DNA from: Pedobacter roseus
Lineage (GTDB): Bacteria > Bacteroidota > Bacteroidia > Sphingobacteriales > Sphingobacteriaceae
Length of the DNA: 64,000 bases
Assembly: GCF_014395225.1 (NCBI RefSeq)
Contig: NZ_CP060723.1
Span: forward strand, 5,332,001 to 5,396,000
Direction: 5' to 3'
Positions 57,327 to 64,000 of this stretch are shown here, one piece after another. The notes under the pieces were generated by a model. It was not told where the DNA came from, did not search any database, and saw only the letters and a program-made list of their open reading frames with translations. The position numbers and the translations under genes are program-made. Position 1 is the first letter of the stretch. The number at the start of each line of letters is the position of its first letter.

Positions 57327-57617
57327 TTATTTCTTGAATTTAAGTTTAGGGTTTCTTGCGGTGTGAAAAACAGCAAAAATTACTATTTCATCCTCTAGGA
57401 TTTCGAATATTAAAACGTATGGAAACTTATTTAAAACTAAATGACGATAGTTCTTTTTTAGTTTTTGATAGTGGAGGGGATTCTTTTCTATTTTATTGAA
57501 ACATCTTCCTAGTTCTGCTAAAAATAGATCGCCCAAGCCTGTTTTTTGTTCTTCATACCAATCATAAGCATCTTTTGCCATCAAAAGGGCTGCAGGCTTT
57601 ATTTGTAGGGTATACAT
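57327..57617 (-). CDS. RelE/ParE-family toxin
   Basis: Second gene of a type II toxin-antitoxin pair. The 96-aa basic product has the ParE/RelE fold pattern: KPAALLMAKDAYDWYEEQKTGLGDLFL, NPLHYQKLKKNYRHLVLNKFPYVLIFEI and a closing strand FAVFHTARNP (quoted in conserved blocks). It could inhibit gyrase (ParE) or cleave mRNA (RelE); the sequence does not decide. Its ATG directly follows the antitoxin stop (TAAATG), indicating coupled translation. Confidence 0.88.
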   Translation of the reverse strand: MYTLQIKPAALLMAKDAYDWYEEQKTGLGDLFLAELGRCFNKIEKNPLHYQKLKKNYRHLVLNKFPYVLIFEILEDEIVIFAVFHTARNPKLKFKK

Positions 57618-61623: not shown

Positions 61624-63129
61624 ATGAAACGAGTACTTATATCTGCACTGATGTTGTTCATTTTTACTGCTTCTTTTGCCCAAAAATTTAACTGGAACAA
61701 AAACCAGGTGATCGCGCACCGTGGCGCCTGGAAGAAAAATAATTTTCCTCAAAATTCCATCGCTTCTCTAAATGAAGCTGTAAAGCTAGGTTGTTATGGC
61801 TCAGAGTTCGACGTATGGATGACAGCAGACGGTGTTTTGGTGATTAACCACGATCCGGAATTTCAGGGTTTAACCATCGAGAAAGTCAGTTATAAAGAAT
61901 TATTGACTAAAACCATGAGCAATGGGGAGAAAATCCCAACTTTAGAGGCTTATTTGCTTGAAGGGAAAAAACAGAAAAGTACAAAACTGATCTTAGAGAT
62001 CAAACCATCACTCATCAGTAAAGAGCGCGGTATCGATGTTACCAATAAATCTGTAGAAATGGTACAGAAGTTAAAAGTAACCGATTGGGTAGAATACATC
62101 AGTTTTGATTACGATTACTGCAAGCGTGTTTTAGCTTTATTGCCAAAAGCAAAAGTGGCTTATTTAAGGGGCGAAATCAGCGCTGAGCAAATGAAAGCCG
62201 ATAAATTAACGGGTGTTGACTATCATTATAGTGTTTACCAGAAAGACAACTGGATCGAAAACGCGCAAAAACTGGGTTTAACTGTAAATGCATGGACGGT
62301 AAATACAGCACCTGAGATGCAGTGGCTTTTAGCCCACAAGGTAGATTACATTACCACTAACGAGCCTGAATTGCTTTTCGAAGAAATTAAAGAAACGCCG
62401 GTTGCGCAAGGGTGGAAATTAAAATGGGCAGATGAATTTGATGATGCCGGATTGCCTTTAGCCAAAAATTGGAGCTATGACGTGGGCGGAAAAGGCTGGG
62501 GAAATAACGAGCTTCAATATTACACTGATGCCGATAGTGCAAACGCTGTGGTAAAAAAAGGAAACCTGAATATTACTGCTATAAAGGCTGATAAAGATGC
62601 CAGCCATTATACCTCGGCCAGGCTGGTAACCAAAAACAAATTCGATTTTAAGTATGGCAGGGTAGAAGTGCGCGCCATGTTACCAAAGGGCAGGGGTTTG
62701 TGGCCTGCAATATGGGCTTTGCCAACCGATTGGAAATATGGCAACTGGCCAAAAAGCGGCGAAATTGATATTATGGAACATGTAGGCTACGATCCTGACA
62801 GTGTGCATGGAACCGTGCATACCGAAAAATTTAATCACGTCATCAAAACGCAGGTAGGTAAAGCGTTAAAAGTAAATAACCCTTATACCGAATACCATGT
62901 TTATGCCATAGAGTGGTTTGCCGATCGTATCGATTTCTTTATCGACGATCAAAAATTCCTCACTTTTAACAATACCAAAAAAGGATCGGGTGATTGGCCT
63001 TTCGATCAGAATTTCCACTTGATTTTAAATGTAGCTGTAGGTGGCGGCTGGGGCGGAAAAAAAGGGGTTGATGATGCTATTTTTCCGGCAACCATGAAAG
63101 TTGATTATGTAAGGGTGTTTCAGAAGTGA
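61624..63129 (+). CDS. Fusion of glycerophosphodiester phosphodiesterase and GH16 glucanase
   Basis: Secreted 501-aa protein with two enzyme domains. After a signal peptide (residues 1-20) the GDPD domain (about 28-255) has H32-R33, E61 and D63 (GSEFDVWMT) and H76 (INHDPE), the metal and catalytic residues that split glycerophosphodiesters. The glycoside hydrolase 16 domain (about 263-501) has catalytic E380-I-D382-I-M-E385 (SGEIDIMEH), the pattern of laminarinases and related beta-glucanases. Both active sites appear intact. Next to it lies a phospholipase C gene. Substrate of GH16 (laminarin or similar) is inferred from the family. Confidence 0.9.
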   Translation: MKRVLISALMLFIFTASFAQKFNWNKNQVIAHRGAWKKNNFPQNSIASLNEAVKLGCYGSEFDVWMTADGVLVINHDPEFQGLTIEKVSYKELLTKTMSNGEKIPTLEAYLLEGKKQKSTKLILEIKPSLISKERGIDVTNKSVEMVQKLKVTDWVEYISFDYDYCKRVLALLPKAKVAYLRGEISAEQMKADKLTGVDYHYSVYQKDNWIENAQKLGLTVNAWTVNTAPEMQWLLAHKVDYITTNEPELLFEEIKETPVAQGWKLKWADEFDDAGLPLAKNWSYDVGGKGWGNNELQYYTDADSANAVVKKGNLNITAIKADKDASHYTSARLVTKNKFDFKYGRVEVRAMLPKGRGLWPAIWALPTDWKYGNWPKSGEIDIMEHVGYDPDSVHGTVHTEKFNHVIKTQVGKALKVNNPYTEYHVYAIEWFADRIDFFIDDQKFLTFNNTKKGSGDWPFDQNFHLILNVAVGGGWGGKKGVDDAIFPATMKVDYVRVFQK

Positions 63130-63380: not shown

Positions 63381-64000
63381 ATGGACTCACGTAGAGAATT
63401 TTTAAAAAAGGCAGCCTTGTTTGCCGGGGCCACGGGCATGGCCAACACTTTGCCCAGTTCGGTGCTAAAAGCCATGTCGATTAACCCAGAGCCAGGCAGC
63501 ACCTTTTATGATGCAGAACACATTGTTTTTTTGATGCAGGAAAACAGGTCCTTCGACCACATGTTCGGAAAAATGAAGGGCGTTCGTGGCTTTAATGATC
63601 CGCATCCGCACATACAGCCGGATGGTAACAAAGTTTGGCTCCAAAAAGATGGTCAGGGTTATACTTATGCCCCCTTCCATGTCGACATTAACAAAACCAA
63701 AATTACCTGGCAGGGTGGTTTGCCACACTCGTGGAACGATCAGGTTGCTGCACGTAATGGCGGTCGTTATGATAAGTGGCTACCCGTAAAAACACCAATG
63801 ACAATGGCTTATTACGATCGGAATGATATTCCTTTTTATTACGCCATGGCCGATGCTTTTACGATCTGCGATCAGCATTTTTGTTCTTCGTTAACTGGAA
63901 CAACACCAAACCGCCTCTTCTTTTTTACCGGAACCATACGGGGAGAGAAAAGTGCAAACCGTGTGGCAGTAGTGAACAATGATCAGGCCGAATCGCAGAA
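63381..64000 (+). CDS. Phosphocholine-specific phospholipase C, partial (3' end outside window)
   Basis: Only the first 206 codons are visible. A Tat signal (SRREFLKKAALFAGATGMA) directs folded export. The mature part begins AEHIVFLMQENRSFDHMFG, the characteristic start of the acid-phosphatase/phospholipase C superfamily, followed by PHPHIQPDG, HSWNDQ and SSLTGTTPNR. It would cleave phospholipid head groups, complementing the GDPD domain just upstream. The gene runs past the window's right edge. Confidence 0.85.
   Translation, partial: MDSRREFLKKAALFAGATGMANTLPSSVLKAMSINPEPGSTFYDAEHIVFLMQENRSFDHMFGKMKGVRGFNDPHPHIQPDGNKVWLQKDGQGYTYAPFHVDINKTKITWQGGLPHSWNDQVAARNGGRYDKWLPVKTPMTMAYYDRNDIPFYYAMADAFTICDQHFCSSLTGTTPNRLFFFTGTIRGEKSANRVAVVNNDQAESQ

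Follow-up and report, generated by a model that had tools for sequence, protein, structure and literature searches.

The window, a stretch of 64,000 nucleotides from the soil-type bacterium Pedobacter roseus, contains an open reading frame of 501 amino acids (61624-63129 on the plus strand, ATG start) in which a GDPD domain and a laminarinase-type GH16 domain are joined in one frame. We propose, with a confidence that stops just short of even, that this fused gene encodes a secreted bifunctional enzyme which degrades a beta-1,3-type glucan bearing glycerophosphate or similar phosphodiester groups. The fusion as such is real and structurally known. What is new is its setting in relatives, together with glycerol genes, and the presence of several fused groups.

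The fused protein and its solved homologue

The protein opens with a likely secretion signal (residues 1-20, 61624-61683), recognized by eye from its basic start, its hydrophobic core and the SFAQ at its end. The GDPD domain which follows (residues 32-249, 61717-62370) matches Pfam PF03009 (7.7e-26; 92.1 bits, cut-off 23.6) over positions 1-243 of the 244 in the profile and thus as a whole domain. Beyond a short linker (about residues 250-264, 62371-62415), the GH16 domain occupies about residues 265-501 (62416-63126), of which residues 306-496 are matched by Pfam PF00722 (1.9e-24; 86.5 bits, cut-off 22); a weaker Pfam match, to SKN1/KRE6, overlaps this part of the protein. All four elements lie on the plus strand. 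Judging by eye from the N-terminus, and from the chains of a solved homologue, which begin at residue 21 or 22, the protein is probably secreted. Elsewhere in the window, a 96-amino acid ORF on the minus strand (57327-57617) looks by eye like a RelE/ParE-type toxin.

A preliminary description of this DNA had already read GDPD and GH16 in one protein with the catalytic residues of both domains kept, had proposed to look for the same architecture in other genomes, and had named a frameshift or an assembly join between separate genes as what could undo this reading. On all of these points the reading stands. Named genome contigs hold 51 distinct loci, 45 of which, 44 titled Pedobacter and one a Sphingobacteriaceae MAG, encode the full protein (residues 1-501) at 80-99% identity; the remainder are L052 (Pedobacter sp. 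BMA), with the GDPD part only, and five loci with the GH16 part only. Because of this recurrence in other genomes, and because a homologue has been solved as a single chain (7ww4, 7wwc), an assembly join or frameshift is ruled out. Full-length fusions were also found in whole genomes, in at least 27 of 201 genomes of the window's family (its genus, with 36 genomes, contributes 25 of the 27) and in three further families, namely in at least 13 of 349 genomes of f54, at least 3 of 120 of f63 and at least 19 of 150 of f68, all of these counts being of rows listed and hence lower bounds. By our guess, f54 resembles Flavobacteriaceae and f68 resembles Chitinophagaceae. Among plasmid records none had one place covering 80% of the query.

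The GDPD residues H32, R33, E61, D63, H76, E125 and K127, which we take to be catalytic by analogy with the family (a His pair and metal-binding acidic residues are among them), occur without exception in the 84 fused rows aligned, 83 of which also keep the GH16 motif E380-x-D382-x-x-E385. Three of the 84 rows are repeats (L093 is the window gene, L105 equals L007 and L106 equals L049), so that 81 are distinct. The one row lacking the GH16 motif, L187 (G1124), has a broken frame: the fused gene is split there into ORFs of 340 and 154 amino acids, and the search of the genome sample gives one internal stop. Pairwise dN/dS ratios (NG86; window gene and 45 orthologues, 1035 pairs, of which those with dS between 0.1 and 1.5 were kept) have a median of 0.038 in the GDPD domain (72 pairs) and 0.046 in the GH16 domain (158 pairs), as compared to 0.186 in the linker (428 pairs), which is looser than either domain, and 0.270 in the signal (797 pairs).

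The closest solved chains, 7ww4_A and 7wwc_A, align to residues 21-501 and 22-501, respectively, with one single-residue gap; relative to the window protein, they are without one residue in the 'HLILN' of residues 459-465. An AlphaFold2 model of the fused protein, built with eight homologues (mean pLDDT 82.5, pTM 0.60), retrieved the same two structures in Foldseek at TM-scores of 0.91 and 0.90 and 91% identity. They belong to a Pedobacter terrae protein (PDB 7WW4 and 7WWC, UniProt A0A1G7XNR7) that has the same two-domain chain and is an orthologue of the window protein rather than a protein of a different kind, and because they match as one chain the GDPD-GH16 architecture as such is already solved. 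The deposited titles read 'multidomain beta-1,3(4)-glucanase' and 'beta-1,3(4)-glucanase with Laminaritriose', the latter being the 7WWC complex. PMC12448869 gives the publication accompanying 7WWC as not available, and an example list there once attaches the code to a xylanase. Nothing on a GDPD activity of the P. terrae protein was found in the literature searched. The best match of the GDPD domain in both structure (46% identity) and sequence is a standalone Bacteroidota GDPD, BDI_0402 (PDB 3NO3), which has the same fold and, unlike the window protein, no glucanase domain. Conversely, the GH16 laminarinases of Rhodothermus (3ILN) and Flavobacterium (5WUT) and SCLam (6XOF) share the catalytic domain in a whole-domain match, whereas their chains are without a phosphodiesterase domain.

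Domain trees and the origin of the fusion

Trees of 78 GDPD and 94 GH16 domains, which are quick trees computed with no bootstrap from a sample drawn by similarity to the query (it includes 8 of the 45 Pedobacter-type rows with a name and omits repeats and L187), do not gather the fused domains into one group. AU tests rejected a single clade of fused domains for GDPD (p 0.006) as well as for GH16 (p 1e-78), and the likelihood gaps of the constrained trees are large (514 and 310). A single clade was also rejected for the window's family by itself (14 fused GDPD domains, p 1.3e-5), with L100, of the same family, counted in the other group. On the GH16 tree the fused domains separate into one group that unites f54 and f63 proteins with L190, another that unites the window's family with f68, the pair L166/L167, and L100. 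The pairing is old, and the simplest reading of the trees is that GDPD and GH16 neighbours, which are also found unfused, were joined more than once. Some of the fused groups may also stem from splits or domain swaps, and several joinings could be imitated by losses, splits or domain swaps.

Gene settings of fused and unfused GDPD

In the window's own lineage the fused gene travels with a phospholipase C. Next to the window gene, a gene for a phosphocholine-specific phospholipase C of 789 amino acids starts on the same strand (63381-63998) and continues beyond the window end; it matches TIGR03396, PF04185 and PF05506, and the whole protein, taken from the genome, scores 742.2 bits with TIGR03396 as compared to an equivalog cut-off of 580.25. 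Its N-terminus (SRREFLKK) looks by eye like a Tat signal. In 45 of 45 named loci a gene for a phosphocholine-type phospholipase C comes directly 3' of the fusion in the same orientation, with gaps of 17-582 bp. It is this gene, and no SusC-SusD pair, that stands directly beside the window gene, and none of the Pedobacter-type loci listed has a glp gene or a SusC/SusD pair directly beside the fused gene. The nearest SusC/SusD-type pair starts about 7.9 kb after the window gene (L093:10020-14608; SusD by Pfam, SusC by sequence only). Past the window end and 3' of the phospholipase C, L093:4778-14608 holds a Reg_prop/Y_Y_Y sensor kinase and a response-regulator-like gene along with that pair. The gene upstream of the fusion is presumably BatA-like; L101-L104, which are more distant loci from the same genus, share this upstream gene and have no phospholipase C following. 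On one contig of Pedobacter sp. BMA (L052/L094) the GH16 half is gone, while a GDPD of 264 amino acids (84% identical) and the phospholipase C are still in place. Because the tree places this GDPD among fused ones, the GH16 half was most likely lost in this species, whose GDPD provides a natural single-domain version of the fusion.

A different setting is found in f54 and f63. There, SusC-SusD lies directly upstream in 15 of the 16 fused loci (13 in f54 and 3 in f63), the exception being L167, in which the pair is found further up; an EEP gene follows directly downstream on the same strand, again in 15 of 16 (in L178 it is on the other strand); and a GH3 gene is among the next three genes in eight. 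A lipobox-like pattern is present in 6 of the 10 f54 and f63 proteins listed. Moreover, unfused GDPD genes occupy the same slot in f54, in the orders SusC-SusD-GDPD-GH16 (L173 and L174), SusC-SusD-GDPD-GH2-GH16-GH16-EEP (L176 and L194) and SusC-SusD-GDPD-EEP (L175). The order SusC-SusD-fusion also occurs in two other genera of the window's family (L100 and L095). In f68, SusC-SusD is directly upstream in 1 of 13 loci (L190), and a SusC gene lies three or four genes downstream in five (L096, L179, L180, L181 and L183). Neighbours were labelled by phmmer, for which each type had between one and five references, and distant members may be missed in this way. Pfam confirmed the references for GDPD, GH16, EEP, GH3, PLC, GH88, REG, GlpD, GlpK, GlpF, GH2, GH30 and GDSL as well as one of two for sulfatase and two of five for SusD; the labels for SusC, BatA, MFS and the remaining references are by phmmer reference alone.

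Laminarin-type polysaccharide utilization loci are a known kind in Bacteroidota. The present loci resemble them in SusC, SusD, GH16, GH3 and, in two loci, GH30, and differ from them in the GDPD that fills a slot and in the glp genes that accompany 10 of 19 f54 GDPD loci. The EEP protein of L098, the sole member tested, matches the mannosyl-6-phosphatase 4c1r (3.4e-44), and its other three solved matches carry no specific function name. 4C1R, which we take to be part of the yeast-mannan system of B. thetaiotaomicron, sets a precedent for the removal of sugar phosphate; its glycan differs, and the role of EEP in the present loci is one that we infer. A mannosyl-6-phosphatase-like EEP also sits in GH16 loci without GDPD (L221, L229, L169 and L171), and because of these loci EEP was dropped as a specific partner of GDPD.

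The glp genes were followed in 19 f54 loci (13 fused, 6 unfused) in which GDPD is part of a fusion, occupies the SusC/SusD slot or immediately neighbours GH16; L168 and L172, with an f54 GDPD and neither SusC/SusD nor glp, were left out. GlpD-GlpK-GlpF lies within or adjoining the locus in nine of the 19, in at least three arrangements: upstream of the GDPD locus in seven genomes (G505, G781, G709, G816, G525, G886 and G731), downstream in G649, where GlpD follows GH3 after 40 bp, and in G708 at a greater distance downstream, in the same orientation. A tenth locus, in G797, has the order GlpK-GlpF-GDPD-GH16, in which the last two genes are 12 bp apart; a sulfatase-like gene precedes it, and there is no SusC/SusD. 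In G626 the fused gene is on a contig of 7.9 kb, and glpDKF stands on another contig before two GH3-like ORFs (L242). Within the stretches read, several of which end at contig ends, no glp genes were seen in the other nine f54 loci or in any of the three f63 loci. GlpK scores above two NCBIfam cut-offs, and GlpF is a channel of the MIP type. GlpD stays below the cut-offs of the glycerol-3-phosphate dehydrogenase models that it matches and in L160 combines Pfam DAO with an alpha-glycerophosphate oxidase C-terminal domain; the divergent gene of 250 amino acids upstream is DeoR-like, below every cut-off. The nine genomes with linked GlpD-GlpK-GlpF have one glpD each at 1e-60, which is the linked one.

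No glp gene was found in 12 control GH16 loci without GDPD (L219-L230), nor in six further ones (L169, L171, L191-L193 and L195); 8 of these 18 contain a SusC-SusD pair. The extended GDPD loci exceed the control stretches (12-19 kb) in length; compared like for like in the first stretches read (8-19 kb), glp genes occur in 8 of 19 f54 GDPD loci versus 0 of 18 GH16 loci without GDPD. Standalone GDPD loci have a GlpD nearby in one of six cases, on the other strand; this locus, L235 (G906), is a SusC-SusD-537-654-GDPD cluster without GH16, the GlpD adjoining it being a second one, and is possibly another GDPD-glycerol locus. Looked at from the side of glpD, the gene has a SusC or SusD no more than five genes away in 8 of 10 f54 genomes with a GDPD locus versus 2 of 18 without (L239 and L255), a contrast whose Fisher p of 0.0005 ignores kinship and is optimistic, because related genomes are not independent. 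These 28 genomes come from 32 f54 genomes with a GlpD at least 61% identical, of which G873, G679, G899 and G869 were left out, as were G299 (60%) and all below. The idea that the GDPD locus has a GlpD clade of its own was rejected, because this GlpD lineage is also present in the 18 genomes that lack the locus. Only a few events may lie behind the glp neighbourhoods.

The target of the enzyme and competing explanations

What, then, do the two domains act on? In the mechanism that we propose, the GDPD domain would remove the phosphodiester substituents, yielding glycerol-3-phosphate or glycerol, and the GH16 domain would cut the beta-1,3(4)-glucan backbone thus exposed. In f54 and f63 the fusion would do so as part of a SusC/SusD locus, in which the EEP phosphatase could take off remaining phosphate and GH3 release glucose, with GlpF, GlpK and GlpD taking up and burning the glycerol; the activity of the GDPD domain, its substrate and the order of the steps are what we infer. 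A phosphodiester-bearing beta-glucan had been suggested before as the target, together with teichoic-like polymers and a shared extracellular nutrient role as further options. The first of these suggestions is now supported indirectly, by the SusC/SusD loci which GDPD and GH16 share with EEP and by the glp genes in about half of the f54 loci, and is set back by the window's own lineage, in which no SusC/SusD pair adjoins the fusion.

It is in this lineage that a shared nutrient role stays in play as a strong rival, because the phospholipase C follows in every named locus and one species has lost the GH16 half. The two domains may well act on different molecules of one food, such as dead fungal, oomycete, algal or plant material, with GH16 opening the wall beta-glucan, GDPD and phospholipase C harvesting phosphate, glycerol and head groups from phospholipids, and the fusion only ensuring joint secretion. 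We consider this possible, a good deal short of probable. It would account for the retention of GDPD and phospholipase C where GH16 is gone, and the glp genes would serve lipid-derived glycerol equally; alone, however, it leaves unexplained both the GDPD genes within SusC/SusD and GH16 loci of other families and the several fused groups on the two trees. For the window's lineage, then, joint scavenging is about as good a reading as a decorated glucan, owing to the phospholipase C and the GH16 loss. A bacterial glycerol-phosphate polymer with glucose, i.e. lipoteichoic or wall teichoic acid or a capsule, which GDPD would cut while the glucanase acts on beta-linked glucose parts, is quite unlikely to be the target. 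The glp genes would fit such a polymer, and GlpQ of B. subtilis with glycerol-3-phosphate (5t9b) does appear among the structural matches of the model, at rank 50; however, the GH16 half is of the laminarinase type and its 91% identical homologue was crystallised with laminaritriose, and the suggestion of teichoic-like polymers gains no specific support. Less probable still is that the GDPD domain is enzymatically dead and serves the glucanase as a spacer or glycan-binding part. The deposited titles, which speak of a (multidomain) glucanase only, would agree with this, whereas the presence of the presumed catalytic residues in every aligned row, the low dN/dS of the domain and the five loci in which GDPD is a gene of its own in the same slot all argue against it.

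On balance we favour a glycerophosphate-decorated beta-glucan as the original target. The present role of the fusion in the window's lineage may be broader, since it has no adjacent SusC/SusD setting there and travels with the phospholipase C. Phosphocholine is found on the periplasmic glucans of Bradyrhizobium, and the mycolaminarin of oomycetes is phosphorylated. Osmoregulated periplasmic glucans include cyclic beta-1,3-beta-1,6 types, and those of E. coli bear phosphoglycerol (PMC10514313). In the open-licence literature we found no paper on the use of a phosphoglycerol-substituted beta-1,3-glucan by Bacteroidota and, in the portions of sources available, no description of the GDPD part of the fusion or of its SusC/SusD locus; in PMC10710014 and PMC10433946 the relevant terms occur without relation to one another. 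As a wider proposal, offered tentatively and in our estimate somewhat more apt to be wrong than right, Bacteroidota would possess SusC/SusD loci dedicated to a beta-1,3(1,6)-glucan that bears glycerophosphate; examples would be a polymer of other bacteria that resembles periplasmic glucans, or a phosphorylated glucan from algae or oomycetes. At the cell surface this glucan would be stripped and cut by GDPD-GH16, the EEP phosphatase and GH3 would finish it and GlpF-GlpK-GlpD would burn the glycerol; selection would have joined GDPD and GH16 more than once, and the window gene would be a descendant that was later re-paired with a phospholipase C.

If this is true, bacteria would have a real source of food in a class of phosphate-decorated beta-glucans, and the loci would offer a genetic handle on those that eat them and, by extension, on those that make them. 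It would also link the use of laminarin-type carbon to that of organic phosphate and glycerol, and would provide a function for the solved structure of the two domains, of which we found no description.
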